Source: a virus. Taken from it: a stretch of DNA of 64,000 bases. Where the stretch lies: positions 1 to 64,000 of the IMG/VR virus record IMGVR_UViG_3300005921_000001. One strand, given 5' to 3'. Positions 1,129 to 31,185 of the stretch are shown here, in pieces. The notes beneath the pieces are model-generated. The model searched no databases, was not told the DNA's origin, and worked only from the letters and a program-made list of their open reading frames with translations. Each line of letters begins with the position of its first letter. The first letter of the stretch is position 1. The translations under genes and the position numbers were made by a program.

Positions 1129-2088
1129 ATGGCGCCTCCCGGCGGATTCCAAACTTCGATGCAGCAAGTTCCTGCCGTAGGCGTAGCAGGCGACTTTGCA
1201 AGCGCAAATGCATGGATGTCGGCTGTAGCCGGCCCCAGCGCGCTCGTTGCCGGTGCAGCGGGCGTTTATGTAGGGCGGTTCTGCTGGACCGCGCCACCCC
1301 CTGATCCGGATGATACTAACGCCATTGTAAACAGCTTTGGCGCGGGCAATGTGGCGGGCTTTGTTCACCGCGCACAGCAGGCACTTATCACCGGCTTCTT
1401 GCAAGACGCATCCATGCTGATCCCGCCGGGATACCAGATGGGCATCATGGTACAGGGCGATTTCTGGATCGTCAACAGCGGTACGGGCGAGGCTGTAGTT
1501 GGCCAGAAAGCCTATGCGAACTTTGCGAATGGCTTGGCTACTTTCGCCGCAACAGGTTCGCCAAGCACAGCCGCGTCCGGCTCGGCTTCAAGCATTGCTG
1601 CCGAAACCAATTCATTTACGGCATCGATTAGCGGCGATGTAATGACCGTCTCCGCCGTAGGCTCCGGTACGTTGTATCCGGGAACTACGATCAGCGGCAC
1701 AGGTGTTACGACCGGCAACCAGATCGTTTCGCAGATTTCTGGTACGGCAGGTGGGGTGGGAACCTATCTGGTATCGATCCCCGAACAGTCGGTGGTCAGC
1801 GAAGCGATCAGCGGCACCTACGGTCTGCTTACGGTTGGCGGTACGGTCGTTTCCGGCTTTGCTGTAGGCCAGACGATCACCGGCACCAATGTTGTTGCCG
1901 GAACACAGATCACCGCGCTTGGCACCGGCACAGGTGGCGCAGGTACTTACGTCGTCAATAACAACACGGTCGTAAGTTCCACAGCCATTTCAGCCTATGG
2001 TAATGTCGAAACCAAATGGTATGCGGCATCCGGCGGCTTGCCCGGCGAATTGGTCAAAATTACTTCCTGGGTCGGTTCTCAGGGCTAA
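1129..2088 (+). CDS. Head decoration-like structural protein with two inserted beta modules
   Basis: This 319-residue protein lies between the scaffold and major capsid genes, the usual place of a capsid cement protein. It starts at an ATG after a clear AAGGAG site. Residues 1-160 and the last 30 (KWYAASGGLPGELVKITSWV) look like a decoration protein. Residues 162-288 hold two copies of a Gly/Thr/Val-rich repeat (TMTVSAVGSGTL-like and GTGTGGAGTYVV) that also appears in the sheath, neck and baseplate J proteins. No catalytic motif is visible. The module may be exposed on the capsid surface; that is inference. Confidence 0.6.
   Translation: MAPPGGFQTSMQQVPAVGVAGDFASANAWMSAVAGPSALVAGAAGVYVGRFCWTAPPPDPDDTNAIVNSFGAGNVAGFVHRAQQALITGFLQDASMLIPPGYQMGIMVQGDFWIVNSGTGEAVVGQKAYANFANGLATFAATGSPSTAASGSASSIAAETNSFTASISGDVMTVSAVGSGTLYPGTTISGTGVTTGNQIVSQISGTAGGVGTYLVSIPEQSVVSEAISGTYGLLTVGGTVVSGFAVGQTITGTNVVAGTQITALGTGTGGAGTYVVNNNTVVSSTAISAYGNVETKWYAASGGLPGELVKITSWVGSQG
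1612..1992 (+). repeat. Recurring beta module, copies 1 and 2
   Basis: Two consecutive protein-level repeats, residues about 162-230 and 231-288 of the decoration protein. Each runs hydrophobic strand, SGTL-x-PG, TISGTGV, TGTGGxGTYxV, then VVSSxAIS. The two copies differ at the DNA level, so this is an old duplication. Confidence 0.7.
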
Positions 2089-2115
2089 TTCTCTCGCAAC
2101 GAAAGGAATAACGCA

Positions 2116-3231
2116 ATGTTTCAGAACATCCAGGAAGCGAGGGAAGCCTTCCGCGCGGTTCATTCCGGCCACAACGGGGCCGGCGAACGCTTTGGTATCT
2201 ACCTTCCCGGCGTGCAATCCTTCCTGCCCGACTCGTTCAAGAGCGAGCAGAGGGGATATAGCATGGCAATGGACGCACAGCCGTCCCTTGTTACTGACCC
2301 CAATTCGGGTATTCCCTGGTTCCTGACCAACTATGTAGACCCTGCGGTTTACAAAATTCTTCAGGCGCCTGTTGAAGCAGCCAACATCTATGGCGAACGG
2401 CGCACAGGGAATTGGACTACTACGACAGCCATGTTCCTGACCGTGGAACATACGGGCGAAACGTCCAGCTACGACGATTATGTCAACAACGGCGAATCGA
2501 ACGCCAATGCAAACTTTCCCCAACGCCAGAATTATCTGTACCAGACGATCAAACAGTATGGTGAACTGGAAATAGCGCGGGCGGGCGAAGCGCGCATCAA
2601 TTGGGTATCGGAACTGGACGGCTCGGCCGCAAACAACATGATGCGGTTCGAAAACTTCATGTACTTTTTTGGCATCCAAGGGCTGGAGAACTATGGTGGG
2701 TTGAACGATCCATCCTTGCCCGCATCGCTTACCCCGGCCACCAAAGCCTATGGCGGAACGACATGGTTCAGCGGCAATCAGCTTAAGGCTACGCCGAACG
2801 AAGTGTATAACGACATCCTGGCGGTCTACACCTCGCTGGTTAACCAGACGGATGGTTACGTCGATTCCAAATCCAAGCTCACGCTCGCCATGAGCCCCGG
2901 CTCGGCAACGGCGATGAAGGCGGCCAACAGCTTCGGCGTCAACACCTACGAGTTGTTGGAAGAAAATCTGCCGAACCTTACTATCAAGACGGCAACACAG
3001 TACAACCAGACTTCCGCCAGCAATCCGCAGGGTATTGCGGCGGGCAACTTCATGCAGATGATTGCTGATGAAGTGGGTGGCCAGAAGACCGGCTATGCTT
3101 CATTCAGCGAAAAGATGCGTTCGCATCCGATCATTCGCGAGATGTCGGCGTTCAAACAGAAGGTGACAGGGGGCGGATTCGGAGTTATTTGGCGCATCCC
3201 AATCGGGGTCGCTTCAATGGTTGGTATCTAA
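2116..3231 (+). CDS. Major capsid protein, DUF2184 family
   Basis: The 371-residue product looks like the DUF2184 family of HK97-fold major capsid proteins: an N-terminal helix, a long E-loop-like stretch (residues 60-130), a segment naming the C-terminal P-domain (FSEKMRSHPIIREMSAFKQK) and an ending in GGFGVIWRIPIGVASMVGI. It follows the decoration gene by 27 bp with an AAAGGAA site. Length and position agree with a capsid subunit. No long N-terminal delta domain is visible, consistent with a separate scaffold upstream. Confidence 0.88.
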   Translation: MFQNIQEAREAFRAVHSGHNGAGERFGIYLPGVQSFLPDSFKSEQRGYSMAMDAQPSLVTDPNSGIPWFLTNYVDPAVYKILQAPVEAANIYGERRTGNWTTTTAMFLTVEHTGETSSYDDYVNNGESNANANFPQRQNYLYQTIKQYGELEIARAGEARINWVSELDGSAANNMMRFENFMYFFGIQGLENYGGLNDPSLPASLTPATKAYGGTTWFSGNQLKATPNEVYNDILAVYTSLVNQTDGYVDSKSKLTLAMSPGSATAMKAANSFGVNTYELLEENLPNLTIKTATQYNQTSASNPQGIAAGNFMQMIADEVGGQKTGYASFSEKMRSHPIIREMSAFKQKVTGGGFGVIWRIPIGVASMVGI

Positions 3232-3240
3232 GGAGACTCT

Positions 3241-3777
3241 ATGCCAGACAACAAACAACCTGCCGCGCCCGCAATTCTGAAGGGCGATGAAATCCCCAAC
3301 AACGGTACAGTAACGGTCGCGTGCAATGTTGCCACGACCGGCATTGTTCTTCAGCTTTACGAGTTCGAGGAATCCGAAGAGCCGGTTCTTGGCGGAGGCA
3401 CGCGCGTCCGCAAGGTAGCGGTTGCTGTTGGCGATCCGATCACGATATTTGGTACATCGGTCGCCAAGGGTGTTGTTCCGCGCTGTGAAATCCTGATGGG
3501 CTATGCGTTGACCAAGAATGTCGATGCACAGTTCATCAAGAAATGGCTCAAGGACAACGCGCAGAGCCCATTGGTCAAGAACGGTTGTATTCACGCTTGG
3601 GCAACCAACCGCGATAACCGGAACTGGACCAAGGAGAACGAATCCCGGCGCAGCGGGCTACAGCCGATTGTTCCCGGCGTGGACGACAAAGGCCGCCCCC
3701 TGGACCTGCGCGTTCCCCGGCGCCGCAATACCGGCATTGGCAACGTAGGTGCTATTACTCAGGGTGTTGCATCGTAA
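3241..3777 (+). CDS. Hypothetical head-region protein
   Basis: A 178-residue protein encoded directly after the capsid gene (AAGGAG site, ATG at 3241) and abutting the DUF4054 gene. The middle is beta-rich; the last 50 residues are basic (RRSGLQ, RVPRRRNTG). I do not recognise the family. Its place between capsid and connector genes suggests a minor head or stopper role, which is inference only. Confidence 0.6.
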   Translation: MPDNKQPAAPAILKGDEIPNNGTVTVACNVATTGIVLQLYEFEESEEPVLGGGTRVRKVAVAVGDPITIFGTSVAKGVVPRCEILMGYALTKNVDAQFIKKWLKDNAQSPLVKNGCIHAWATNRDNRNWTKENESRRSGLQPIVPGVDDKGRPLDLRVPRRRNTGIGNVGAITQGVAS

Positions 3778-4263
3778 ATGGGCATCCAGGTAACATTAAC
3801 CTACGGCCCTTGGATTGCGCTGTTTCCGGAGTTCTCGAACACCGTAAGCGAAGCGCAATTCAGCCTATGGTTGATTGTTACCACAACGCTCCACCGCAAT
3901 GACGGTGGCGGCCCGGTAACGAATGCGCAATCGCAGACGACGCTGCTCAGCCTTGCGCTTGCGCATCTTTGTTTCATCTATCTTGGCACAAACACCCAAC
4001 CCGCTGCGCAAACGGTAGGTCGCATCAACAGTGCGTCGGAGGGTAGCGTTGCCGTTACCACCGATTATGGTGCTAATGTCAGTCAAAGCATGGCGTTTTG
4101 GATACAAACAAAGTATGGCGCGCTTTACTGGCAGATGACCAGCGTTTACCGCACTATGCGATGGATTCCAAACCCACGCCCTGCAATCACCAGCAACATC
4201 TATGGTCCCGGACCTGGCCCGTGGGGCAATGGCTGGGGCGGCTTCGGATGGCCTAATTTCTGA
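3778..4263 (+). CDS. DUF4054 head-tail connector protein
   Basis: The 161-residue product has the DUF4054 pattern: an N-terminal FPEF segment, a central helical part, the motif VGRINSASEGSVAVTTDYG near residue 80, then QTKYGALYWQMTSVYRTMRWIP. DUF4054 proteins follow the capsid gene in many myoviruses and are taken to be head completion (adaptor) proteins. The C-terminus is Gly/Pro/Trp-rich (PGPGPWGNGWGGFGWPNF). The stop overlaps the next start (TGATG). Confidence 0.8.
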   Translation: MGIQVTLTYGPWIALFPEFSNTVSEAQFSLWLIVTTTLHRNDGGGPVTNAQSQTTLLSLALAHLCFIYLGTNTQPAAQTVGRINSASEGSVAVTTDYGANVSQSMAFWIQTKYGALYWQMTSVYRTMRWIPNPRPAITSNIYGPGPGPWGNGWGGFGWPNF

Positions 4264-4796
4264 TGGCGATCAAAGGTGGTGAAAAGCTTGTTCTGTGGAT
4301 GAACAAGATGGCAGCACAATTGAAAAAGCCTGCTGTTGTCAGAGTAGGCTTTCTGGAGTCTGCTACATATCCGAACGGTACTCCGGTTGCGATGGTGGCA
4401 GCAATACAGGATTTTGGAACCGGAAAGATTCCCCCGCGTCCATTTTTCCGTAATATGATCGCAAAACACAAGAAGGAGTGGGAACCTGCGCTTGCGTTGG
4501 GTATCAAACGCAATGGCTACGATATCAAGAAAACCTTGATGCAACTTGGTGAAGGTATCGCCGGTCAACTTCGCCAGAGTATTGTAGACACGAATGCACC
4601 GGCGCTAAGTCCCATTACCGTCATGCTTCGCGGAATGAAATCGCACGATCAATCTTTGGTTGTGACAGGTAAGACGGTTGGTATTGCGGCACAGCGCGTG
4701 CGTGACAGCAAAACGAATTATGGAGCATCAACCAAAGTTCTGGTGGACAGTGGGCATTTGCTCAATTCCGTTGACTACGAAGTAACAACGCCTTAA
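4263..4796 (+). CDS. Head-closure or tail-completion protein, HK97 gp10/Mu gpG-like
   Basis: This 177-residue protein has the features of small morphogenesis proteins found after DUF4054 genes: VRVGFLESATYPNGTPVAMVAAIQDFGT followed by IPPRPFFRNM and a C-terminal VDSGHLLNSVDYEV. The PPRPF motif with a following helix is typical of this group. It starts at the TGATG overlap with the DUF4054 gene, so the two are probably translated together. Confidence 0.6.
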   Translation: MAIKGGEKLVLWMNKMAAQLKKPAVVRVGFLESATYPNGTPVAMVAAIQDFGTGKIPPRPFFRNMIAKHKKEWEPALALGIKRNGYDIKKTLMQLGEGIAGQLRQSIVDTNAPALSPITVMLRGMKSHDQSLVVTGKTVGIAAQRVRDSKTNYGASTKVLVDSGHLLNSVDYEVTTP

Positions 4797-4808
4797 CAGG
4801 AGACCACA

Positions 4809-5867
4809 ATGGCAGGTCAACTCAACTACAATAACCAACCGCTGTGGAGCCCTTCTATTGGCGATCTCCCCAGCTTTACACAAATGTTGGCGCAGTCGGA
4901 CCTATCGCTTAGCGAGGCGATTGTTCCTGCCGCTATTACCACAGTAGGCAACGGAACGATTACCGCTACCGCGCTGAATGCCGGCGCAGTTGTTCGCTCA
5001 GGGCCAACCGCCGCTTACACGGATACATTTGACACAATCGCCAACATCATTGCATCGCAATCTGGTGGGTGGGTGTCAGGGGGTGGCTTCCAGTGCATCC
5101 TTAAGAACCTGACAGCCTTTCCGCAAACGCTTTCGGCGGGGGCTACGGGTATTGTTCTGCCGACAACGATTATCGTCGGCCCGTGGCAGGAGGCTATTTA
5201 TTCCTTTGTGTTTGGCGGTACAGCGAACGCACCGACTATTACAGTATACCATCTTTCCACGGGTTCCGTTGCAGATGCGGCCGGTGTTACATCGCCGCAA
5301 ATTACATCTGTCACGACCGTTGGTGCCGCTACGCTTGCTGCCGCAGCCATTGCGCAGGGAATCATCTCGCGAGGCGGTGCGCAGTCTAACGCGGCATTTG
5401 TCGATACGACCGACACCGCAACAAACATTATTGCGGCCAATCCGGGCCTGATAGGAAAGATTGGTTCCTCTTGCCTGTTCTATTATCAGAACGGCACCAA
5501 CGCGACTGTTACATTCACCGGCGGAACTGGTGTCAACAGTGCTGGAACAATTGACACCATCGAAGGTAATTGTGCGGCGCTCTACCAGATCAACTACACC
5601 GCCGCTGCTACGCTTGTTTTCACGTTGATTGCCAAGTGGAACGTGCCCACGGCACCGAACGGAACCTTCGTAGCAAACGGCGTCACACCTGTTACGGTGG
5701 CGGACAGCCGCCTTACTGCAAACTCGGTTATTATCGTAACGCTCAAAACGGTTGGCGGTACGGTCGGCGCGATCCCAGCGCCGAAGACTGTTACGCCGGG
5801 CACCGGCTTTACGATTGCCGGAACAGTCTCCGATAGCAGCACCTACAATTACTTCATCGTCAACTAA
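4809..5867 (+). CDS. Structural protein with internal duplication
   Basis: A 352-residue protein with an AGGAGA site before ATG 4809. It has two related halves: the segment around residues 40-110 (ATALNAGAVVRSGPTAAYTD, then IIASQSGG and a CILKN strand) recurs around residues 165-240 (AAAAIAQGIISRGGAQSNAAF, IIAANPG, CLFYYQN). The last 70 residues resemble a short beta domain found at the C-terminus of other phage structural proteins (PVTVADSRLTANSVIIVTLK). Probably a virion surface protein; no enzyme motif is seen. Confidence 0.55.
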   Translation: MAGQLNYNNQPLWSPSIGDLPSFTQMLAQSDLSLSEAIVPAAITTVGNGTITATALNAGAVVRSGPTAAYTDTFDTIANIIASQSGGWVSGGGFQCILKNLTAFPQTLSAGATGIVLPTTIIVGPWQEAIYSFVFGGTANAPTITVYHLSTGSVADAAGVTSPQITSVTTVGAATLAAAAIAQGIISRGGAQSNAAFVDTTDTATNIIAANPGLIGKIGSSCLFYYQNGTNATVTFTGGTGVNSAGTIDTIEGNCAALYQINYTAAATLVFTLIAKWNVPTAPNGTFVANGVTPVTVADSRLTANSVIIVTLKTVGGTVGAIPAPKTVTPGTGFTIAGTVSDSSTYNYFIVN

Positions 5868-6241
5868 TGAACCTGCACGGGATCGTAGCGGGAAACATCA
5901 GCGCGGTAAACCCGTTCGTAACAGTAGTGATTAGCGCCTCGGCCGGTTACGCGACGCTTCCGTCAGCCGAGCGTGTTCCGCAATACAACAACACGCCCGC
6001 ACAAGCGCAAATTCAAGCGATGACCGGCGGCGATCTTCGGCAGATTGAAGGACTCAACCTGAATGGTACGCTGCGCAAGTTCTACTTTTACGGTGATGTC
6101 GAAGCTACCGTTCGCGCCGATCTCAAGGGTGGCGATATCATTACAGATATGGAAGGGCAGGAATGGCTTGTAAATCAAGTGATGGAAACATGGCCCGATT
6201 GGTGCGCGGTCGTGGCCACCCTACAGGTTCCTACGCCATGA
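5867..6241 (+). CDS. Head-closure-type neck protein
   Basis: The 124-residue protein belongs, by recall, to a conserved set found between DUF4054 and neck-terminator genes. Its marks are an N-terminal NLHGIVAGNISAVNPFVTV, a central IEGLNLNGTLRKFYFYGDV and a final GQEWLVNQVMETWPDWCAVV. It starts one base inside the preceding stop (TAATG) and ends in an ATGA overlap with the next gene. Confidence 0.6.
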   Translation: MNLHGIVAGNISAVNPFVTVVISASAGYATLPSAERVPQYNNTPAQAQIQAMTGGDLRQIEGLNLNGTLRKFYFYGDVEATVRADLKGGDIITDMEGQEWLVNQVMETWPDWCAVVATLQVPTP

Positions 6242-9200
6242 GACTTGCTGCGCTTGTCATGGTCTTTCTGGTAGCCCTATTAAACCCTCCTGCCTTCGCG
6301 CAAACCGGAGCCCCGCCTTCCCCTGTAGGTGGTGCGCAGCTTTGCAATAGCTGCTATACACCGTTTGCGGTCGGAACAACATCAACACCTATAGCATTCC
6401 CTGCGTCGATCCCGCCTTACTCGACCGTAACCCTAAACAATACAGGGACGGTCGATGCTTATATTGAGCAGGGTCAATCGACGGTCGTAGCAACGCTGGC
6501 AAGCCCTGTGCTGCGCGCCGGCACAAGCATTGTTCTCAATGCCACACAAGGCGGCTATTTGGCTGCAATTACGGCAAGCGGTACAACTAACATCGATATT
6601 TTTCAGGCAACAGCGTCCGTGCTGTTGCATACGTCCTCGGCAAATGGAGGCGGTGGCTCGCCTACGGGCCCGGCCGGTGGCGACCTAAGCGGTACTTATC
6701 CCAACCCCGGCGTAGCCCGAATCCTTGGCCAGACGCCAAGCCCGCTTGCCACGGACAACGCTGCGCAGGCTACAGCCTTCCTGAACCTGTTCTCTGCTGG
6801 CACACAGGGCCTTGTGCCCGCCAGCGGTGGCAGCAGCACGCTGCTCTATTTGAACCAAGCGGGGCAATTCACGAGCCCCCCTGGTTCTTCCTGTGGCGGC
6901 AATGCGTGCGGGACGTTTGCCACGCAGAACTATGCTACACCACCAATTATCGGCGGCGTGACGCCGAATGCGGCCTTCTACAGCGCGCTCACTGACACCG
7001 GCATTACAGGCTCTATTCAATGCCTTCACGCTAATTCAGGGGGGTTGATTTCGGGGACAGGTAGCGATTGTGGTTCGGGCGGTGGCGGCTACCCGCCCGC
7101 AGGAACTACAGGGCAACCGCAGTACAACAACAATGGAGTTTTCGGAGCTTACACGGCAATCCCGTTAGCCTATGGAGGGTCGGGACAAACGACCGTGGCC
7201 GGTGCGCTTGGCTGTTCGGGCTTCAATATCAATTGCCTGACGGTTCAAGGCGATGCCAACTACCAATTGCTTGCGACAGATCGCGCTGTCGAACTTGGAA
7301 CGCCGTTTACAACTGTACGCACTGACACGCTGCCATGTGCCGATTTACTTAGTGCGGGTCAGGGTCTGCAAATTTATGATCCCGCACAAAACATCAATGT
7401 GCTGGATTATTTGAACGTCATTCCCAGTTCGTCATGCGGCGATACCCTGAATGGGTCCGTGAACACTATTGTAAATGCCTACTATGCCGGCTCGCGAATC
7501 TTTGCCATTAGTAACGGCATCAATGGCTGGCAGGTTGTTGTTTCGGCGCCCCCGATCTTCCAGCTTGATTTTGCCCGCGATTTTGGGGGCGTCGTTACAA
7601 AGGTAAACGGCACAAATTCATGTACGATAACGGCCAGTTCTGCCAATATCTCTTGCTCCGGTACGCCGACGTTCACACAAGCTGATGTTGGTGATATTGT
7701 AACAGCCGACGCATGTGCATCGGGTGGTACGCTTTTCACATCCTATCTGGTTTCTGTCACGGCGGGGACTGGCAGTGCTGTGATGCACGATCAGCCCGCC
7801 GTAAATTGTTCGTCCATGAAAATGATAAATCAGATCAATGTGGCTACGGGAGGCAGTGGTTACAAATTCGGTGCATTTGAAACATTGGTCGGAGGGTCTC
7901 CGGTTGCGGCACAGGTCGGAACGCCAGCGGTACTGGGAGCTAGTTCACTTACGATCAGCAGTGGTGGTTCAGGGGGCACCAACGGATGCACGGCGCTTAC
8001 GTTGAATGCGGCCGGGCGCGCGTTGCAGGGTTTGCAGGCGACCTTTGCGGGAACTATCAGTGGGAATGCCTTGACATCCGTTTCCGGGGTGTTTCTGACG
8101 CCGGGAAGTTACACGTCGTTGACAGGCTACACCTATGACGGTTCTGGCTATTACGACAGCATCCCTGTTACTGGTTGCGGTCTTGTAGGTGCGACGGTGA
8201 ATGTTTCGTTTGCTATACAGGTAGAAAGTCTTTCTGGAGCAATAGGCGTTTATCCGATTTCGTCCATTCCATGCGCGACAATGATTGCCGATACTACAAC
8301 GTCTACCAGCCATGGCACAGGGGCTACGTTCTACTGTCGATCATTTGCTCCGGTACAGTGGATCGGACATGACAATATAGCATCGATGCAAAAAATGGCG
8401 ACTGCCGAAAGTGCAGGCAATGCGGCGGGTGCACCAATTACAGTTCAAGTCAATGGATTATTTGGTACATCAGGTCTCAACCCTGCTACGAATGCCATTC
8501 TTGGCCCCGCATCGGTGATCGGCACGGGACCATTCATTTCCGGCTTCTACCATATTCCCAATACAGGCGGCGATATTCTACCGATTGTTGACTCCAATCC
8601 GAACGGTAGTGAAAACCCGTTTTCGTTTCTGATGCAGGTTAATCAGTCCGGTACATTCATTCGCAACCTGACATTTTACGGTGACACGACTTCGAGTACA
8701 TGGGATCGTGATGTAACAGCCTATGGTCCTATGAAATGGGCTACATTTCAGGATATTGTCGGGATTGATACAACAGGTCATATTTTCGGTGTAGGTGGTG
8801 ATAGTACGGGGTGTGGCGTCATCGAAGAGTCCAACTTCGATAACATCCGTTCTTACATAGTTGGTAGCACAACCTACAAAGACCCCGCACTTGGCTTCGA
8901 CGCTGTAGGATGCTCACCGGGCTCGAACAATATCAGCTTGATCCGGCAACGCTCATTCGATGATCCGTATTTCGCCCTCACTGTGCGTCCCGCCACAGGG
9001 AGCACGGGGAACGGCTCGCACGACATCACAAACACGGACCCGAAGTATGAGCGGTCCGGGCTCGACGACGCACGCACGACAGCGGGCCAAATCCTGCTCG
9101 GCTGCAATACCGATTGTCTGTTAATGCAGTGGCCATCCACGACAGGAACGCCGATCAGTGGGAGCGCGAACGGTGGCGTTTCAAGCGTTTTCATTACCAA

Positions 9201-9948
9201 CGCGATATTTGCCAACCCATCCGTCAATTCGTTTGCTGTGATCGTCGAGGGGCTTCAACAGTCCGACGTAAGCCAGATTTACATAACAGGAAACATAACT
9301 GCGGCAGCGCATTCGCACGGCGGAGGTTTTCTGTTCAACGCTTGTAATGCGGCGTGCATTCTCAATGTGCCACAGAACAGTACCGTCGATTACAATTTGC
9401 TTGCTACGTCTTACCCAAATGCCGGACAAATCATGTCCGGTTCCATTGAGTACGATGCACATGGATACAATCCCGTTTTTTCGGCGGATAATGGGATCAA
9501 CATTGCTTGCGATGGCGGCAATGGGGTTTTGAATGCGGGCGGTGTTTGTGTGATTGGTGTTGGCAATGGTGGAACGGGGGCTATTACTCCGCAAGCAGCG
9601 CGCGCCAACCTCAATATCGACGGGCTTACCTACCGCAGCAACAACCTTAACTATCAGATGCTTGCCACGGATCGGATGGTAGCACCAAGTATTGCGCAAG
9701 CGGATCGTACATGGTCGTTGCCTTGTGCCGCTTCCGTAAACCCAGGTCAAACCTTGATCGTTGACGATTTCCAGGGGCTCGTCAACGGAACACATACGAT
9801 CACAGTTCAGCCATCTGCGTCCGGTTGTTCGGATGTGCTGAATGGTGCGAACAGTGGGGGAGCCGGTATTGTAATGAGCACTGCATATCAGGCTGAAATC
9901 TTTGCCAGCGATGGCGCATCGCGTTGGACGCTAATCGGTGTGCAGTAA
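6238..9948 (+). CDS. Large fibre-like protein with Sec signal peptide
   Basis: I choose the ATG at 6238 (ATGA overlap with the previous stop), not the longer frame from 6163, because it starts a textbook signal peptide: MRLAALVMVFLVALL followed by AFAQ. The mature part is about 1,215 residues. It has a phage fibre motif GGDLSGTYPNPGVARI near residue 145. A stretch with the feel of a right-handed beta helix lies near residues 700-1060. Two related modules (near residues 325-435 and the last 120) share NYQxLATDR, TLPCA and SxCxDxLNG. Cysteine pairs are frequent, fitting a secreted protein. Its place among neck genes, far from the other fibres, is odd. Possibilities are a head fibre, a depolymerase, or a cargo gene made for the host envelope. 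Confidence 0.7.
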   Translation: MRLAALVMVFLVALLNPPAFAQTGAPPSPVGGAQLCNSCYTPFAVGTTSTPIAFPASIPPYSTVTLNNTGTVDAYIEQGQSTVVATLASPVLRAGTSIVLNATQGGYLAAITASGTTNIDIFQATASVLLHTSSANGGGGSPTGPAGGDLSGTYPNPGVARILGQTPSPLATDNAAQATAFLNLFSAGTQGLVPASGGSSTLLYLNQAGQFTSPPGSSCGGNACGTFATQNYATPPIIGGVTPNAAFYSALTDTGITGSIQCLHANSGGLISGTGSDCGSGGGGYPPAGTTGQPQYNNNGVFGAYTAIPLAYGGSGQTTVAGALGCSGFNINCLTVQGDANYQLLATDRAVELGTPFTTVRTDTLPCADLLSAGQGLQIYDPAQNINVLDYLNVIPSSSCGDTLNGSVNTIVNAYYAGSRIFAISNGINGWQVVVSAPPIFQLDFARDFGGVVTKVNGTNSCTITASSANISCSGTPTFTQADVGDIVTADACASGGTLFTSYLVSVTAGTGSAVMHDQPAVNCSSMKMINQINVATGGSGYKFGAFETLVGGSPVAAQVGTPAVLGASSLTISSGGSGGTNGCTALTLNAAGRALQGLQATFAGTISGNALTSVSGVFLTPGSYTSLTGYTYDGSGYYDSIPVTGCGLVGATVNVSFAIQVESLSGAIGVYPISSIPCATMIADTTTSTSHGTGATFYCRSFAPVQWIGHDNIASMQKMATAESAGNAAGAPITVQVNGLFGTSGLNPATNAILGPASVIGTGPFISGFYHIPNTGGDILPIVDSNPNGSENPFSFLMQVNQSGTFIRNLTFYGDTTSSTWDRDVTAYGPMKWATFQDIVGIDTTGHIFGVGGDSTGCGVIEESNFDNIRSYIVGSTTYKDPALGFDAVGCSPGSNNISLIRQRSFDDPYFALTVRPATGSTGNGSHDITNTDPKYERSGLDDARTTAGQILLGCNTDCLLMQWPSTTGTPISGSANGGVSSVFITNAIFANPSVNSFAVIVEGLQQSDVSQIYITGNITAAAHSHGGGFLFNACNAACILNVPQNSTVDYNLLATSYPNAGQIMSGSIEYDAHGYNPVFSADNGINIACDGGNGVLNAGGVCVIGVGNGGTGAITPQAARANLNIDGLTYRSNNLNYQMLATDRMVAPSIAQADRTWSLPCAASVNPGQTLIVDDFQGLVNGTHTITVQPSASGCSDVLNGANSGGAGIVMSTAYQAEIFASDGASRWTLIGVQ

Positions 9949-10665
9949 GTGCTTGTTATATCACTCAAGCCCAACCAGACCGACATCAATACTCTCCTGA
10001 GCGCGTTCCTTTTGACGGTAGTGCCGAGCGGTGTGGAGGTTGTCCTTGGGCAAGACAACAAAGTATCGGAGCCGCTTGGCCCCGACTTCCTCGTCATGAC
10101 ACCCATCCGCCGCGAACGCATTTCGACCAACGTCGATACCTACGCAGATTGCTACTTCACAGGCTCCATTACCGGTTCAGTATTGACGGTCACATCAACC
10201 GAGTATGGGCAGATCGTTCCCGGAACTACCATATGGGGCGAAGGCATTCTGGCGAATACGACCGTCGTTCGGTCCAGCGCACCTAATGTCTGGTTGCTAA
10301 GCAACACGCAAACGGTCGTTTTAGAAAGCATGGCAGCTGGCACGCAAGCCTTGACGCAATCGACCAAGATCACATTCCAGATCGATGTACATGGCCCTAA
10401 TTCGGCTGACAACGCACAAAACATCTCGACGTTGTTTCGCGATGAAGTAGCGGTCGATTACTTCACAGCGAGCAATCCGGCAATCACCCCCCTGTATGCC
10501 GACGATCCACGGCAAATGTCATTCCTGAACGATCAGAACCAGATCGAACGGCGTTGGATTGTAGAGGCGCTGGTTCAAGCGGATCAGACAACTACCATCG
10601 CATTCCAGTTTTTCGATCAGGCAACTATCACACCCATCGATGTGCAGGCCGCTTACCCTGCCTAA
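9949..10665 (+). CDS. Neck terminator (gp12-like/LIC_12616-type) protein
   Basis: A GTG start directly abuts the preceding stop. The 238-residue product shows the tail-terminator pattern ISLKPNQTDI, LLSAFLLTVVPSGVEVVLGQ, FLVMTP, then IDVHGPNSADNAQ and DDPRQMSFLN. It is expected to cap the tail tube at the neck. Residues 69-129 are an insertion of the recurring beta module, splitting the normal domain after NVDTYADC. The sheath gene follows after an AAAAGGAG site. Confidence 0.75.
   Translation: MLVISLKPNQTDINTLLSAFLLTVVPSGVEVVLGQDNKVSEPLGPDFLVMTPIRRERISTNVDTYADCYFTGSITGSVLTVTSTEYGQIVPGTTIWGEGILANTTVVRSSAPNVWLLSNTQTVVLESMAAGTQALTQSTKITFQIDVHGPNSADNAQNISTLFRDEVAVDYFTASNPAITPLYADDPRQMSFLNDQNQIERRWIVEALVQADQTTTIAFQFFDQATITPIDVQAAYPA
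10153..10335 (+). repeat. Recurring beta module in neck terminator
   Basis: Residues about 69-129 (FTGSITGSVLTVTS, then PGTTIWGEGI, then TVVLESMAAG) follow the same strand pattern as the modules in the decoration and sheath proteins, but the Gly-rich GTGTGG turn is degenerate. Confidence 0.6.
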
Positions 10666-10680
10666 AAGGAGTAACAAATC

Positions 10681-12681
10681 GTGTCCACGATACCTGCAAG
10701 CGACATCGCACAAATCATTCCCGGCGTTCTTCCAGCAGGCGGCTCGTCATTCTCGCTTATTGGATTGATGTTGTCCTCCAGTTCGCGTGTACCGATCAAC
10801 GGCACCGATAACCCGGTTATTCTGGCCTTCGCCAACGCGCTTGCTGTTTCGTCCTACTTTGGACCGAATTCCATCGAATATGAATTGGCGTCGACCTATT
10901 TCCTTGGTTTTACCAATTCGCAGGCGCTTCCCGGAAGCCTGCTCATTGCTCAATACAATAGCACGCGGGTTTCGGCCTTCTTGCGCGGTGGCAACGCGTC
11001 CGCGCAGCTTGCTGCGTTGCAGGCTATTACCAGCGGCGCGCTGGAAGTCATTGTTGATGGCTTTTCGTGGAAATCGACCAGCATCAACCTTTCTTCCGAC
11101 AATACATTTTCCGCCATAGCGGCTACCGTTCAATCCGATTTGGCGCTTCCAAGTTCCGCAAGCGGCACAGGCTCTATTGCTCCGAACGTCAATCCTGGCA
11201 GTTCGAACAATATGGGTGTTATGACGATTACGGGTGGTGTTACAGGAACGATTGCCGTTGGTCAGGTTGTAGCAGGCTCTGGAGTTTCCGCAGGAACTTA
11301 CATCACCGGCTATGGCACGGGAACTGGTGGTGATGGAACCTATTACGTTAGCATTTCGCAGACGGTCAATAGTGAAGCCCTGACGTTTACCGCCAGCGCG
11401 GCGTCGTTTACAGCATCGATTGCAGGCAACACGATGACCGTTTCGGCGGTTGGTTCCGGTACGTTGCAGCCGGGCATGGTTGTAACAGGTGCGGGCGTTA
11501 CCGCCGTTACGACCATCAAGTCGCAGCAATCCGGTACGATTGGCGGTGATGGTGCATATACGATCTACCCGTCGCAGACGGTTAGTTCCGAAGCCATGAC
11601 CGGCGCTCCGGGCGCCATTGCCGTAACCTACGATTCTATCGCGGAAGCATTTGTCATTACGTCGGGAACGAATGGCACGGTTTCAACGGTTTCGTTTGGA
11701 ACACGCTCGCTTGCTACGACGATGCTTTTAACGCAAGCCACAGGTGCTGTGCTTTCGCAGGGCGCGGCTCCAGCCGATCCTGTCGGTTTCATGACCAACG
11801 TGCAGCAACAGACACAGAATTGGGAAACGTTGTTCATGACATTCGATCCCGATCTGATCTTGGGCAACCCGTCCGAACCGCCTACGCAAAAGCTGTTGTT
11901 TGCGCAATGGACCAACAGCACCGACGACGCTTTCACTTACGCTTGTTGGGATCAGGATATCTTGCCTACCGAAGGCTTGGCTACGGGCTCGTTCGGTTAT
12001 TTGAACGGGATCAATGGTGCCAACAATTCCGGCATAGTACCAATTTCAACTAGTGATCCCAACAAGGCCGCTTTTGTAGCCGGCACAATCGCCTCGGTGA
12101 ATTTCTCGCAGACAGACGGCCGCACGGTGCTTAAGTTCCGGCAACAGACCGGGCTTGTGGCTGACGTTACCAGCCAGACCGTAGCTAACAATCTTCGTTC
12201 CAACGGCTACAACTTCTATGGTGCATGGGCTACACGGGCCAACAATTTCATAGGCTTTGCAGACGGCGTTATTTCCGGTCCGTTCAACTGGGTCGATTCT
12301 TACATCGATCAGGCATGGCTGGACGACGCGCTCCAGGTAGCGCTGATGACCATGTTCTTCAATATCCGGTCGATTCCGTTCAATCAGCCCGGCGCATCGA
12401 TTGTTCGTACCGCTTGTTTGGGTCCGATCAACGCCGCACTCAACTTCGGCGCCATTGTGCCGGGTGTAGACCTTACCCCCTTGCAAATCCAGACTATCAA
12501 CAATGCCGCCGGCAACCAGCAGGCGGGTGCCATTGTAGCGAACACGGGTTGGTATTTGCAGGCGGCTATTACCACGGCTTCGGCGGCGCAGCGCACGGCG
12601 CGTGCGGCAACAGGAACCTTGTGGTATGCGGACGGTGGCTCCGTACAGGAAATCTCGCTTAACGTCGTTGACGTTCAATAA
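10681..12681 (+). CDS. Tail sheath protein, DUF3383 family
   Basis: GTG start after AAAAGGAG. The 666-residue protein has a DUF3383 N-terminus (IIPGVLPAGGSSFSLIGLML, then AYFGPNS-like) and C-terminus (FYGAWATRANNF, WVDSYIDQAWL, GWYLQA). This family forms the contractile sheath in many myoviruses lacking a T4-type sheath. Two copies of the recurring module occupy residues about 173-308, so the protein is longer than the usual sheath of this type. The tube gene follows by 12 bp. The sheath, with hub, spike and baseplate J genes nearby, identifies the phage as contractile-tailed. Confidence 0.87.
   Translation: MSTIPASDIAQIIPGVLPAGGSSFSLIGLMLSSSSRVPINGTDNPVILAFANALAVSSYFGPNSIEYELASTYFLGFTNSQALPGSLLIAQYNSTRVSAFLRGGNASAQLAALQAITSGALEVIVDGFSWKSTSINLSSDNTFSAIAATVQSDLALPSSASGTGSIAPNVNPGSSNNMGVMTITGGVTGTIAVGQVVAGSGVSAGTYITGYGTGTGGDGTYYVSISQTVNSEALTFTASAASFTASIAGNTMTVSAVGSGTLQPGMVVTGAGVTAVTTIKSQQSGTIGGDGAYTIYPSQTVSSEAMTGAPGAIAVTYDSIAEAFVITSGTNGTVSTVSFGTRSLATTMLLTQATGAVLSQGAAPADPVGFMTNVQQQTQNWETLFMTFDPDLILGNPSEPPTQKLLFAQWTNSTDDAFTYACWDQDILPTEGLATGSFGYLNGINGANNSGIVPISTSDPNKAAFVAGTIASVNFSQTDGRTVLKFRQQTGLVADVTSQTVANNLRSNGYNFYGAWATRANNFIGFADGVISGPFNWVDSYIDQAWLDDALQVALMTMFFNIRSIPFNQPGASIVRTACLGPINAALNFGAIVPGVDLTPLQIQTINNAAGNQQAGAIVANTGWYLQAAITTASAAQRTARAATGTLWYADGGSVQEISLNVVDVQ
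11197..11604 (+). repeat. Recurring beta module, two copies in the sheath
   Basis: Residues about 173-238 and 241-308 of the sheath. The second copy shares the run TASI, TMTVSAVGSGTL, PG, and SGTxGGxGxYxxxxSQTVSSEAMTG with copy 1 of the decoration protein. Confidence 0.75.
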
Positions 12682-12693
12682 GGAGCACCATCC

Positions 12694-13122
12694 ATGTCTA
12701 TTACCGCTGCCAATGCACTAATAACCCTTGCCGTAGAGTCGGTATTTCCTAACGCCGTCCAGATTCAAGGCTTTGCAGCCGATGATCTATTCGATGCTGA
12801 AGATATGGAAATCGTCGAAACGCTCATGGGCGTGGACGGATACCTTTCGGCGGGTTACGTTAACGTACCGTTCAACATGAACATCAGTCTACAGGCGGAT
12901 TCGCTTTCCAACTTCCTGTTTGACCAATGGTTCGCGGCGCAGCGCGCGGCGCAGGACGTGTTTGCAGCGGATGGCGAAATTGTCTTGCCGAGCATCGGCA
13001 CATCGACGATCCTTTCAAACGGATATCTTGTCAAATACAAGCCGGTGGCTGATGCCAAAAAGCTGCTCCAGCCGCGCAAGTACATGATCCGGTTCAACAG
13101 CAACCAGCCCATCCCGCTCTAA
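12694..13122 (+). CDS. Tail tube protein
   Basis: A 142-residue protein encoded immediately after the sheath gene with an AAGGAG site. Segments such as GFAADDLFDAEDMEIVETLMGVDG and FNMNISLQADSLSNFLFDQW match the tube proteins that accompany DUF3383 sheaths. Size, position and lack of other motifs support the inner tube role. Confidence 0.75.
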   Translation: MSITAANALITLAVESVFPNAVQIQGFAADDLFDAEDMEIVETLMGVDGYLSAGYVNVPFNMNISLQADSLSNFLFDQWFAAQRAAQDVFAADGEIVLPSIGTSTILSNGYLVKYKPVADAKKLLQPRKYMIRFNSNQPIPL

Positions 13123-13131
13123 GGAGGCCCA

Positions 13132-13602: not shown

Positions 13603-13763
13603 GCTATGCCATGGGTGCGGTTATTTCGGCGGACAAAGCCAAGCTCCATGAACTGCAAACAATTTACGGCGGTGTTGATCTTTATGACCTATTGGAAATC
13701 ATAATGGTCGATTCCCACAATCGCGCTGTGGCCCAGCAGCATTACGCGAAAGAGAACAAGTAG
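13132..13763 (+). CDS. Tail assembly chaperone, -1 frameshift product (gpGT analogue)
   Basis: The sequence G GGT TTT at 13518-13524 is a classical X XXY YYZ site in the zero frame. After slipping, the next codon is at 13524 and the frame stays open for 79 codons to the TAG at 13761. The fused product is about 210 residues and ends with GGVDLYDLLEIIMVDSHNRA, an ending I know from downstream partners of tail chaperones. A separate start at ATG 13611 is possible but lacks a convincing ribosome site. The TAG overlaps the GTG of the tape measure gene. Confidence 0.75.
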
Positions 13764-16209: not shown

Positions 16210-16521
16210 ATGCTCATAGTTCCTTTGCAAGCCGTGCCGTCGCAGATCGTCAATGTGAATTTGGCGCAACAGGCTGTGACGCTGAACGTGTACCAGAAGC
16301 GAACGGCGCTCTACACCGACGTTCTTGTTGGTGGAGTCCTTCTGATGGGTGGTATCATATCCGAGAATTGCAACCGTTTGATTCGATCATTGTACCTAGG
16401 CTTTACAGGGGATTTCGTCTATCTGGATTTGCAGGGCAATGCTGATCCATATTACACGGGGCTGGGGGATCGTTGGCAATTGGCATATCTAACACCCACC
16501 GATTTGGGCGGGGCCGGGTAG
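16210..16521 (+). CDS. Baseplate plug protein (Pam3 gp18-like)
   Basis: The 103-residue protein starts immediately after the preceding stop. It matches the small baseplate plug family in the order QIVNVNLAQQAVTLNVYQK, LYTDVLVGGVLLMGG, NCNRLIRSLYLGFTGDFVYLD and a final DLGG. The plug closes the baseplate centre in cyanophage Pam3; function here is by analogy and by its place before the hub. Confidence 0.75.
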   Translation: MLIVPLQAVPSQIVNVNLAQQAVTLNVYQKRTALYTDVLVGGVLLMGGIISENCNRLIRSLYLGFTGDFVYLDLQGNADPYYTGLGDRWQLAYLTPTDLGGAG

Positions 16522-16522
16522 C

Positions 16523-17416
16523 TTGTCATTCGTTCAGCGCCTCCTGAACATCGAATTTACGCTGGCGTCCGGAAATTTCGCGGAAAGCGGAACAAATACC
16601 GTTACCCTATCGGGTTTACGTGCGAGCGCGCATGTGGTCAAATCAGGCCAAATACGCGATACGCTTGAACTCGATGTCTACGGCATGACACCTTCGCAAA
16701 TGCGCCAGCTTTCGACGCTGGGGATGCAGGTTCAACTACAGCCGCGCAATCAGGTAACGGTTATGGCGGGAGATGTTGTAGGCGGAATGCTCAAGGAGTT
16801 TTCCGGCACGATCTACAACGCCTATACCGATCTTGCCGGTATGCCGGATGTTGCTTTTCGCTTGTCCGCGCAAACGGCGCAGTTCGATGCTGTTACCAAT
16901 GAGAACTCGAAACTATACCCAGGAACGGTTGCCGTTGCCGATGTGATGCAGGATTTTGCAACAACCCTCGGGCTGCATTTTGAAAACAACGGTGTAACAA
17001 GCACATTGTCCAACGAGTATTTGTGGGGATCGACGTACCAGCAGCTTGGCAAATGCGCCAAGGACGCAGGGATTTCATTCACCATAGATTCCAAATCAAG
17101 CATATTGGCGATTTGGCCCAAGAATGGAGCGCGGACCTCATCGGGGCAAATACCTGTTATCTCTGCCGCAACAGGCATGGTCAAAGCGCCAACATTTACG
17201 GCACAAGGTGTTGAAGTAACCTCCCTGTTCAATCCGATCTTTTCTATTGGCGGCCAGGTGCAAATTCAAACAGAAATAGAAATTGCGCAACCTGCTAACG
17301 GAACATGGGCTATATTCAAGCAAGAGGACCACCTTGAAAGCATGGTCCCCCATGGCGAATGGTTCTCGGTGCTTGGTTGTTATAATCCGCAGTATTCAGC
17401 GCCGTTGCCCGAATGA
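16523..17416 (+). CDS. Baseplate hub protein
   Basis: A TTG start one base after the plug stop. The 297-residue product has late-control/hub features: a beta-rich start (FTLASGNFAESGTNTVTLSGLRA), a middle with GTVAVADVMQDFATTLGLHFEN and YLWGSTYQQLGKCAKDAGISF, and an end in HGEWFSVLGCYNPQY. It would form the trimeric hub under the tube. The next start (ATG 17413) overlaps its TGA. Confidence 0.72.
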   Translation: MSFVQRLLNIEFTLASGNFAESGTNTVTLSGLRASAHVVKSGQIRDTLELDVYGMTPSQMRQLSTLGMQVQLQPRNQVTVMAGDVVGGMLKEFSGTIYNAYTDLAGMPDVAFRLSAQTAQFDAVTNENSKLYPGTVAVADVMQDFATTLGLHFENNGVTSTLSNEYLWGSTYQQLGKCAKDAGISFTIDSKSSILAIWPKNGARTSSGQIPVISAATGMVKAPTFTAQGVEVTSLFNPIFSIGGQVQIQTEIEIAQPANGTWAIFKQEDHLESMVPHGEWFSVLGCYNPQYSAPLPE

Positions 17417-18066
17417 GCAGCGCAGGCGCTATAGGGCAAATGTCGCCGGACGATACGGCGACCGATTTTACCGCGATTTCGTTTCTCATCAGGCAAACAT
17501 TGGCCTATGTTCGGACGGCACAGATTGTTCAAGTCAAAGCCGTTACGACCACGGACACTGTAGCAGGCTCCGGTTACGTTTCGATCCAGCCGCTTGTGAA
17601 CCTAACGGACGGGCTTGGAAACTTCGCAGGGCAGCACGGCACACTACAAAACATCCCCTTCCTGCGCTTGCAAGCCGGCACAAACGCGATCATCAACGAT
17701 CCGCAAGTTGGTGATATAGGGCTGGCGGTGTTTTGCGACCGCGATATTTCCGCCGTAAAGAATGCGCTGGCTCCAAGTAACCCAGGATCGTTTCGCCGCT
17801 TCGATATGTCGGACGGTATTTATTTGTTCACGATTCTTGCTGCTACACCTACGCAATACCTTCAGTTCATTCCGGCAGGTGGCATGACTCTGGCCGATAG
17901 CCTCGGCAACCTCATTCAAATGCTGATGGATGGTATCGAAATAACCACGCTAACGCTGACCGTTGACGGCAATTTGGTCGTTACTACAGCACCAAGCGGA
18001 ACCTTTACCAGCGCGGACGGCAAGACGATCACTGTCACCAGCGGAATCATAACAGCAATCGTTTGA
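17413..18066 (+). CDS. Baseplate spike protein, Gp138 N-terminal family
   Basis: ATGA overlap with the hub gene. The 217-residue protein has the Gp138-type OB-like fold signature (VKAVTTTDTVAGSGYVSIQPLV, PFLRLQAGTNAIINDPQVGDIGLAVFCDRDIS), which forms the membrane-puncturing spike in contractile tails. The C-terminal repeats (TLTVDGNLVVTT, GKTITVTSGIITAIV) would be the spike beta helix. A 151-bp non-coding gap follows, the only large one in the tail genes. Confidence 0.8.
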   Translation: MSSAGAIGQMSPDDTATDFTAISFLIRQTLAYVRTAQIVQVKAVTTTDTVAGSGYVSIQPLVNLTDGLGNFAGQHGTLQNIPFLRLQAGTNAIINDPQVGDIGLAVFCDRDISAVKNALAPSNPGSFRRFDMSDGIYLFTILAATPTQYLQFIPAGGMTLADSLGNLIQMLMDGIEITTLTLTVDGNLVVTTAPSGTFTSADGKTITVTSGIITAIV

Positions 18067-18092
18067 AAATGATGCTGCGGACAGGATATGAA

Positions 18093-18179
18093 TAGCGAAG
18101 AGAGTTTGATAGAGCCGAGTTACCATAAGCCCCAACCGTCCTGAGACGGAAGACCAAGCGATTCAAACTCTCATCGCTA
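18093..18179 (+). ncRNA. Structured RNA candidate between spike and wedge genes
   Basis: Bases 18093-18109 and 18163-18179 pair over 17 positions with one A-A mismatch (tagcgaAgagagtttga against its complement). The 53-base interior has a second hairpin, ccgtc-ctga-gacgg at about 18136-18149. There is no U-run after the stem, so it is not an ordinary terminator, and it does not fit a tRNA or a hammerhead core. It could be a cis element controlling the wedge and baseplate genes, a processing site, or a small RNA. The strand is assumed from the flanking genes. Confidence 0.45.
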
Positions 18180-18217
18180 AATTAAGCTCGTAGCACAGCA
18201 TTTTTGGAAAGTCAAGC

Positions 18218-18598
18218 ATGACCACAACCTTGGCGCTTTGGAACAACCCGGAGAACCTGCCCGGTCAACCGGCTAATTGGGATTTGTACGTCGACAACAA
18301 TGGCAACATTGCGATCAACACGGGAGGATTGCAGCTTGCGCAAGACGCGGCATCCGCGATCAAAACATTTTTGGGCGAGGTCTACTACGATACGAATTAC
18401 GGGGTGCCATACTTCCAAACGATATTGGGGAAGCTTCCGCCCTTGGCGCTTGTTAAAGCCCTATTCGTGCAGGCGGCATTGACGGTTCCCGGCGTGGTGC
18501 AAGCACGCTGTTATTTAACTTCCTTCAACCATCGGACCTTTTCCGGGCAGGTACAAATAACGGATGAAACAGGCCAAGTCTTTACAGCGAACTTCTAA
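18218..18598 (+). CDS. Baseplate wedge protein, T4 gp25-like
   Basis: The 126-residue product (LQLAQDAASAIKTFLGEVYYD, TNYGVPYFQTILG, QARCYLTSFNHRTFSGQVQITD) has the pattern of gp25/W-like wedge proteins, which nucleate sheath assembly. It comes just before baseplate J. I see no strong purine-rich ribosome site upstream (tttttggaaagtcaagc), so translation may depend on the structured leader. Confidence 0.72.
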   Translation: MTTTLALWNNPENLPGQPANWDLYVDNNGNIAINTGGLQLAQDAASAIKTFLGEVYYDTNYGVPYFQTILGKLPPLALVKALFVQAALTVPGVVQARCYLTSFNHRTFSGQVQITDETGQVFTANF

Positions 18599-18601
18599 TA
18601 C

Positions 18602-20086
18602 ATGACATCGCCCGCGACCAACATTCCGCAACCCTATTGGAACACGGCAACCGGCTTTGTTGCCCCCCCTGAATCGGCCATTTTGGCCGGCGCTATTGCC
18701 GATCTACAACAGGCGTTCGGCGGTAGCCTTAACCTTGACCCAAATGTTTCCAGCACGCTTACTACACCGCAAGGACAATTGGCATCCGAAATTGCTGCTA
18801 CTGTAGGCAACGCGGACGACGTTTTCTGCTTCTTCACCACACAGGTTGATCCCGCCTATGCCACCGGCCGGATGCAGGATGCTATTGGCCGCATCTATTT
18901 CATGGAGCGCAATGGTGCCGAACCAACCGTCCTGAATATCGTTTGTTCAGGGGGTAACGGGGTTGTGATCCCGTCCGGCGCGGCTGTCATCGATTCGGCC
19001 GGAAATAATTATACAACATCGGGGGGCACAATTCCCGGCACGGGAATGATTACCCTGGAATTTTCAGCGGTTATCCCCGGCCCTACAATGGTCCCGGAAA
19101 CCGTTACAATCTACCAAGCTATTTCAGGGTGGGATTCGGCAACAGTTTCGGGCGGTACGGTAGGTACGGCAACGGAAGGCCGTGCGGCTTTCGAGTCGCG
19201 GCGCGAAGCATCCGTTGAAGCCAACGCGCTTGGCATTATGGGTGCCATTCTAGGTTCCATCGCCAATTTGCCTGGTGTACTCGATTATTGGGGTATCGAT
19301 AATCCTACAACAGGAACGGTCGTTCTTTATGGCGTTTCGATAACTGCCAATAGCATGTACCTTGCTGTGGTCGGCGGAACAGACAAGAATGTGGCAAATG
19401 CTATCCTCGCACGGCGCCCTCCGGGAACGCCGATGGTTGGTAACACAACGGTCAATGTTGTGTATAATCCATTGGGCACTGATGGGCAACCCTTGTATGA
19501 AAATCCGCCAACCTACGCAATCATTTTTGAGCGACCTACTGATGTGAACATCTTGTTCTCGGTGGTGCTGGTCAATAGCCCTGCGGTTCCCTCGAACGGC
19601 GTGGCCCTTGTGCAGAATGCTATTGTGAGCGCTTTCAACGGCGGCTTCCCTGGACTTACGCGGGCGCGCATAGCCAGCCTGCTTCTTTCGACTAACTACG
19701 TTCCTGTCGTTCAAGCATTGGGGCCATGGGCGCAAATCCGTTCATTAGGCATCAATTCAGCTAACACGCCTATTGTCACAGCTACAGCGTCGTTTGCCAC
19801 TAATGTGATGACAGTTTCTGCCATTTTGACCGGCGGCAATGCGTTGGCTATTGGACAAACAATCGACGATAGCCTTTCCAACGGCGAAGTAGCACCGGGG
19901 ACTATCATTACCGGACAAACGGGGGGGACGACCGGCGGTGTAGGCACCTACACCTTGAGCCAGCCGGTTGGAACCATTGCCAGCGAAACAGTCGCCGCAC
20001 TGCTGCCAAATCAACTATCCGTACAGGTGTTTGGCAATCAGGAGCCGGTTCTGAACGCCAATAACATTGCGGTTACGGCTACATGA
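18602..20086 (+). CDS. Baseplate J-like wedge protein
   Basis: The 494-residue protein has the baseplate J pattern: an N-terminal NLDPNVSSTLTTPQGQLASE and DPAYATGRMQDAIGRIYFMER, a beta-rich centre, then GRAAFESRREASVEANALGI, ANAILARRPPGTPMVG and a C-terminal VVQALGPWAQIRSLGI. One recurring beta module sits near residues 395-467, before the last strand. The stop overlaps the DUF2612 start (ATGA). Confidence 0.82.
   Translation: MTSPATNIPQPYWNTATGFVAPPESAILAGAIADLQQAFGGSLNLDPNVSSTLTTPQGQLASEIAATVGNADDVFCFFTTQVDPAYATGRMQDAIGRIYFMERNGAEPTVLNIVCSGGNGVVIPSGAAVIDSAGNNYTTSGGTIPGTGMITLEFSAVIPGPTMVPETVTIYQAISGWDSATVSGGTVGTATEGRAAFESRREASVEANALGIMGAILGSIANLPGVLDYWGIDNPTTGTVVLYGVSITANSMYLAVVGGTDKNVANAILARRPPGTPMVGNTTVNVVYNPLGTDGQPLYENPPTYAIIFERPTDVNILFSVVLVNSPAVPSNGVALVQNAIVSAFNGGFPGLTRARIASLLLSTNYVPVVQALGPWAQIRSLGINSANTPIVTATASFATNVMTVSAILTGGNALAIGQTIDDSLSNGEVAPGTIITGQTGGTTGGVGTYTLSQPVGTIASETVAALLPNQLSVQVFGNQEPVLNANNIAVTAT
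19784..20002 (+). repeat. Recurring beta module in baseplate J
   Basis: Residues about 395-467: ATASFATNVMTVSAIL, then APGTIITGQTGGTTGGVGTY and TIASETVAA. Same order of motifs as in the sheath and decoration copies, with a longer first loop. Confidence 0.65.
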
Positions 20087-21938: not shown

Positions 21939-21949
21939 AAGAACACCGG

Positions 21950-31172: not shown

Positions 31173-31185
31173 GGTAGCTGTTCCT

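Follow-up and report, generated by a model that had tools for sequence, protein, structure and literature searches.

A predicted beta-barrel module inserted into head, neck, sheath and baseplate proteins of an environmental phage

The stretch of DNA analysed here (the window) comprises 64,000 bases of the 74,667-base virus record IMGVR_UViG_3300005921_000001 of IMG/VR. Its virion genes carry six copies of one small protein module, two in the decoration protein, one in the neck terminator, two in the tail sheath and one in the baseplate J-like protein. The four parent proteins and the copies within them are listed below, with the bit scores of the copies.

1129..2085, plus strand, decoration (minor capsid) protein with an XM1 gp53-like core (PF23982, 2.2e-16; phrog_2122)
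1612..1809, plus strand, module copy 1, first of the decoration tandem (67.6 bits; a barrel in the AlphaFold2 model)
1810..1995, plus strand, module copy 2, second of the decoration tandem (45.6 bits)
9949..10662, plus strand, neck/tail terminator protein (PF23961, 5.1e-21; NF047498)
10153..10338, plus strand, module copy 3, in the terminator at parent column 75, with a degenerate turn (28.2 bits, independent E-value 8e-8)
10681..12678, plus strand, tail sheath protein, DUF3383 (PF11863, 4.4e-102; PHROG tail sheath)
11155..11388 (profile core 11203-11379), plus strand, module copy 4, first in the sheath, at parent column 158 (60.4 bits)
11401..11604, plus strand, module copy 5, second in the sheath (71.3 bits)
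18602..20083, plus strand, baseplate J-like (wedge) protein (phrog_6, 1.9e-35)
19778..19999, plus strand, module copy 6, in the baseplate J-like protein at parent column about 391 (42.3 bits)

The detection profile was built exclusively from relatives and contains none of the window copies, and it recovers exactly six copies in the window (28-71 bits; independent E-values 3e-21 to 8e-8). When the residues of all window open reading frames (ORFs) were shuffled, in 20 versions, the same profile found no match, and a search of the remainder of the record gave no module beyond the six. The original prediction, which had placed six copies of one repeat at these positions in these four proteins, is borne out both in the positions and, by the PF23982, PF23961, DUF3383 and phrog_6 matches, in the identities of the parents. 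It had also described a shared order of motifs, including a Gly-rich turn GTGxGGxGTY. This order stands in general, except that the terminator copy, the most degenerate of the six, has SSAPNVWLL in place of the turn and that the first hairpin of the first sheath copy is longer than in the other copies. The module is composed of 30% Ser and Thr and 17% Gly, with less than 4% charged residues.

Comparison with module-free relatives, which exist for all four parents, reveals clean insertions into standard folds. In the sheath, relatives at the loci L021-L029 have no module, those at L017, L018 and L020 have one, and two modules occupy the same loop in the window, L007, L008, L011 and L016; the sheath of L031 has one module in a different loop. 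Decoration modules are placed ahead of a conserved C-terminal tail, which reads GELVKITSW in the window protein; their number is zero in L027 and L028, three in L018 and two in others, including the window. The terminator is empty in L016, L018, L021, L024 and others, and carries one module in the window, L007, L017 and L022; in L008 and L011 it has two modules, each at a site of its own. Baseplate J relatives use different sites, and the site used in the window is empty, or the module lies elsewhere, in L018, L027, L028 and L031. Mapping onto the parent profiles gives nine insertion positions, which are reused (one in the decoration protein, two in the terminator, three in the sheath and three in the baseplate protein).

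Across 35 related loci, 83 copies are confined to six of 19 structural genes. The module is present in 12 of 14 orthologues of the decoration protein, 10 of 24 of the terminator, 15 of 27 of the sheath and 13 of 17 of baseplate J, and among the minor parents in 3 of 14 orthologues of fibre 20772 and 1 of 15 of gene 20083. Two neighbouring genes of the window serve as module-free internal controls.

2116..3228, plus strand, major capsid protein (phrog_264)
12694..13119, plus strand, virion structural protein after the sheath (phrog_1964), here called the tube protein from gene order

At these loci none of the 19 capsid and 25 tube orthologues carries the module, and neither do orthologues of the chaperone, tape measure, hub and wedge-18218 genes. 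The grouping of parents as surface proteins was made post hoc and some of the loci were retrieved by module queries, so the Fisher p value for surface proteins is descriptive only. Cultured phages with the same parents, whose sheath or decoration genes are short, gave no profile match. Nine control phage records likewise gave no match at E 0.01, in a search that included no positive record alongside them, the query having matched other records. We regard the existence of the domain family and its pattern of insertion as nearly certain. The view that the repeats interrupt or extend standard domains, and that they form one family on head, neck, sheath and baseplate proteins independent of the parent fold, is upheld.

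The module is widespread in environmental phages, with at least 441 confirmed relatives in a scan of viral contigs. A tblastn search of the phage collection with the module by itself gave no match, probably owing to masking by the low-complexity filter. Parents elsewhere include an SU10-type adaptor, a head-closure protein, a siphophage major tail protein and a capsid protein, together with tail fibres, pectate-lyase spikes and GDSL-esterase fibres. A pair of proteins of ~325 and ~660 residues, found on many freshwater contigs, was considered as terminator and sheath and proved to be the SU10-type adaptor and the head-closure protein. Most of the named BFVD matches are virion proteins, two further ones are collagen-repeat proteins attributed to Indivirus, and many other matches are uncharacterized. 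In bacterial genomes the copies are often grouped in prophage-like stretches; in Paraburkholderia elongata 5N all seven lie on one contig, six of them in decoration, terminator, sheath and baseplate J proteins. A non-viral parent is found at L125:3031-4863, where a metagenome-assembled genome (MAG) of Bacteroidota carries the module in a SusD-type starch-binding protein, a glycan-binding surface protein whose gene is flanked by a TonB receptor and a cyclomaltodextrinase-type alpha-amylase. In a Methylovulum MAG (L129:4033-6567) the module lies within a protein in which a protease is fused to the major capsid protein (PF25209, phrog_133).

Modelling of the decoration tandem from an alignment with 49 tandems gave a predicted local distance difference test score (pLDDT) of 89.8 and a predicted template modelling score of 0.78. 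In this model each module of about 63 residues forms five to six strands, and the module is very probably a six-stranded beta-barrel. Copies 1 and 2 follow each other with no linker and have one long strand in common, a 16-residue strand (E64-79 of the tandem model) that continues from the first module into the second. Since the module inserts into loops, its two ends probably lie close together. The model of the whole sheath is of lower quality (pLDDT 71, inserts mostly 60-76), and its parent part matches the sheaths of Pa193 (9b42_S, Z 20.8) and E217 (8env_A, Z 20.4). The alternative that would have refuted the original prediction, in which the segments are integral strands of the parent folds, is contradicted: module-less homologues retain the parent fold, the tandem is predicted to fold alone, and the inserts in the sheath model form strand sets of their own.

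The best PDB match of the tandem is a 124-residue protein of Arthrobacter phage Bridgette (8eci chain 1; VIA Z 7.5, root-mean-square deviation (rmsd) 1.8 over 64 residues, 22% identity), which is also the top Foldseek match (E 0.045). Other VIA matches are PF0907 (Z 7.4) and domain 2 of IF2, EF-Tu and eEF1A (Z 6-7, about 72 residues), the rmsd for these four being mostly 2.6-3.2. These Z values are middling, and therefore only the fold class is claimed. A profile search of the PDB was empty at E 1; YebT alone came up at E about 5, and no translation factor was among the matches at E 10. The Pfam model GTP_EFTU_D2 matches 3 of 50 tandem members weakly (best E 0.047). The likeness to EF-Tu domain 2 is thus one of shared fold only, without significant sequence kinship, and the module and domain 2 of EF-Tu or IF2 have no context in common. 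The Bridgette protein differs in being a separate short chain and not an insert, and has no significant sequence match with the module.

None of the curated Pfam and NCBIfam families searched matches the module. The profiles of PHROGs 21413 and 38233 (tail fibre) contain it, with matches down to E 1e-36; however, these are long multi-domain profiles in which the module is neither named nor delimited. A search of open-access literature, including motif strings, found no paper describing the module, which is not proof that none exists.

Immunoglobulin (Ig)-like domains have seven to nine strands arranged as a Greek-key sandwich of about 80-100 residues. With its smaller size and its five to six predicted strands the module is not predicted to form such a sandwich. 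No Ig-like Pfam model gave a match, either in the window proteins (to E 1) or in the 50 tandem members (to E 5), and Pfam scans of the same two sets gave no carbohydrate-binding module model. No Ig-fold or lectin structure is present among the VIA matches listed for the tandem, and no Ig fold among the Foldseek matches listed, an absence which does not exclude Ig matches. Optional, exchanged surface domains of phages are nevertheless known, and are chiefly Ig-like (PMC8718954, PMC9230969). Promiscuous Ig-like domains (Big_1, Big_2, I-set) on phage virion proteins were described by Fraser et al. (2006, J Mol Biol 359:496), and, as that work is related in PMC8718954, they sit on capsid, tail tube, sheath and fibre proteins as small optional beta domains that are exchanged between phages and leave the parent fold intact when absent. 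The module resembles them in being dispensable, shuffled horizontally and attached to virion proteins of many kinds. It differs in predicted fold and in size, the model being a barrel near EF-Tu/IF2 domain 2, and in being inserted in loops as well as near ends and in four proteins of one virion simultaneously. Additional domains of phage sheaths have been characterized as mostly Ig-like (Evseev et al. 2022, PMC9230969), and the InD of XM1 as FliD D3-like (PMC10457771). They are beta domains and have in common with the module a variable number and a position between the N- and C-terminal parts of the core, away from the part that contacts the tube. However, those domains have been studied in sheaths, whereas the module here is also present in decoration, neck and baseplate proteins.

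The original prediction spoke of one module inserted six times, and the 35-60% protein similarity among the copies could suggest six recent duplications or insertions within this genome. This explanation is highly improbable. The DNA identity of 13 of the 15 pairs of window copies lies inside the range of codon-shuffled sequences and only two pairs (decoration copy 1 with the terminator copy, and the terminator copy with the J-like copy) lie slightly above it, while the nearest relatives of each copy are in other phages. The history of the module was examined further with a tree built from 68 copies in the four parents, which rests on few columns and has many open forks. On this tree site labels require 22 changes against a shuffled mean of 36.7 and tandem-position labels 7 against 15.9 (none of 200 shuffles was as low in either case), whereas genome labels require 57 changes against 56.3 and are unclustered (164 of 200 shuffles were as low). 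Gene conversion within a genome was likewise rejected on the unclustered genome labels. When only decoration and sheath tandems are considered, position is strongly clustered (4 changes against 12.1) and the parent protein weakly (9 against 12.0). We read the tandem pair as an old two-module cassette common to the decoration and sheath sites. Because the copies cluster by site and tandem position and not by genome, and because almost no similarity is left at the DNA level, they appear to be old inheritances, and the present copies have largely been inherited by site.

Gain of the module seems to continue. Two near-identical phages, compared at L066:5563-7881 and L035:4868-6775, share 88% DNA identity on either flank, and L066 has two additional, divergent modules in its head-closure protein, at the edge of the second module, with breakpoints at module boundaries. 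Judged from these sequences, the difference is a recent gain (or loss). Such recombination at module edges, and the repeated use of tolerated sites, would also be expected of a selfish or neutral sequence that spreads through its foldability, recombinogenicity and tolerance without any benefit. We consider this quite improbable, as the module keeps its sites even among relatives that have diverged widely, clusters by site, and is absent from most structural genes.

The repeats are thus copies of one portable domain, predicted as a neutral barrel rich in Gly, Thr and Ser, which is plugged, singly or as a linker-free tandem, into a small number of virion-protein loops that tolerate it. The explanation of its function that we find best overall, though tentatively, is as follows. 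Because one continuous strand spans both modules of the model, tandems should form stiff rods. The modules would project outward, and their number in each virion is put at about a thousand, an estimate made because the parents are high-copy proteins and assuming XM1- or E217-like numbers and a capsid of about T=7; XM1 has 18 sheath rings and decoration trimers at the three-fold axes (PMC10457771), and E217 has 204 sheath subunits (PMC10329688). They may then give the particle a surface with weak, high-avidity adhesion to neutral polysaccharide in the surroundings of the host, and would take no part in catalysis, contraction or assembly. Weak multivalent adhesion to neutral polysaccharide is the most likely selected role among those considered, although its probability stays below even. 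A role in adhesion has also been proposed for the Ig-like additional domains of sheaths (PMC9230969). A wider proposal, in which the module is a universal surface tile of phages of all three tail types, exchanged among them by recombination and displayed simultaneously on head, neck, tail and baseplate, and the whole particle, beyond its fibres, contacts the extracellular matrix multivalently, is distinctly unlikely.

Among 145 non-redundant modules, conservation is seen at turn glycines, at Thr and Val/Ile columns and at Tyr50, and charged residues make up no more than 35% of any column. With this pattern and the low overall charge, catalysis and metal sites are improbable. The divergence of modules was compared with that of their parents, and module identity tracks parent identity; no fast diversification was seen. 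Several observations speak against adhesion. The module has no conserved aromatic platform and no conserved charged or metal site, its only conserved aromatics being F1 and Y50, a pattern that matches neither a classical catalytic site nor one for aromatic stacking, and the earlier suggestion of sugar or mucus binding is not borne out by these columns. The copies within one virion have no shared signature and are no more alike than random copies, as the genome labels of the tree indicate; a shared specific ligand, and with it a coat fitted to a single ligand, is for that reason disfavoured. Cultured relatives are viable and gave no module match, the position of the modules at the surface is deduced from the parent proteins and models, and the SusD-type case comes from a single MAG.

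The module could also be a passive spacer or shield, that is, an inert, uncharged coat of barrels which prevents aggregation, protects in soil or water, or masks the surfaces of the parents and has no specific ligand. The very low charge and high Ser, Thr and Gly content, a conservation that centres on turn glycines and the core and includes no charged site, the lack of similarity by genome and the divergence in step with the parent are all consistent with it. It would leave unexplained, however, the use of the module in tail fibres, spikes and the SusD-type protein, where the job of the parent is binding, and we rank this reading close after adhesion, as somewhat unlikely. A glycosylated Ser/Thr-rich coat was rejected, since a scan of ten window proteins, which was not exhaustive, turned up no glycosyltransferase. 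It is also conceivable that the modules touch adjacent subunits and act as a cement for capsid trimers, sheath rings or the neck. An inserted domain (domain2) of YSD1 cements tail neighbours (PMC8718954), domain II of phage 812 is a similar case as quoted in PMC9230969, and the XM1 decoration protein is trimeric (PMC10457771). However, the number of modules at the same site varies from 0 to 3 among relatives, cultured relatives assemble without them, and one barrel is unlikely to meet nine specific interfaces in four unrelated parents. An assembly or stability role is accordingly improbable compared with weak adhesion.

What emerges is a common virion domain without an entry in the curated libraries searched (Pfam and NCBIfam) and without a significant match when the PDB is searched by profile. 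The analysis supplies exact pairs, with and without the module, of capsid-decoration, neck, sheath and baseplate proteins, nine sites in a contractile phage that are naturally permissive for insertion, and prophages of soil bacteria in culture, such as Paraburkholderia elongata 5N and Bradyrhizobium sp. STM 3843. Because of these pairs, sites and cultured prophages, the role of optional phage surface domains, a long-standing question, becomes directly testable.

Other genes of the window also deserve mention. A second, unrelated internal repeat is present at 4809-5864 (TTVGNGTITATALNAGAVVRSG / TSVTTVGAATLAAAAIAQGIISRGG; TDTFDTIANIIASQ / TDTATNIIAANP), with a match to the K1-lyase C-terminal domain at its end and a weak match to a head-scaffolding PHROG. 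Three ORFs that look like fibres or spikes (6163-9945, 21935-22543 and 22557-24770) start with stretches resembling Sec signal peptides (MRLAALVMVFLVALLNPPAFA, MKQLKYALLTGMALLLCWLSDPAHA and MKRLLYLLWLVAGAAFA, respectively), which is unusual in virion proteins, and the last of them ends with a chaperone-like region and a hydrophobic segment. An RtcB RNA ligase gene (29946-31208, minus strand; PF01139, 4e-128) shares its strand with the replication genes, and two separate genes for UvrD-type helicases are located at 34079-35596 and 49867-51396, both on the minus strand.

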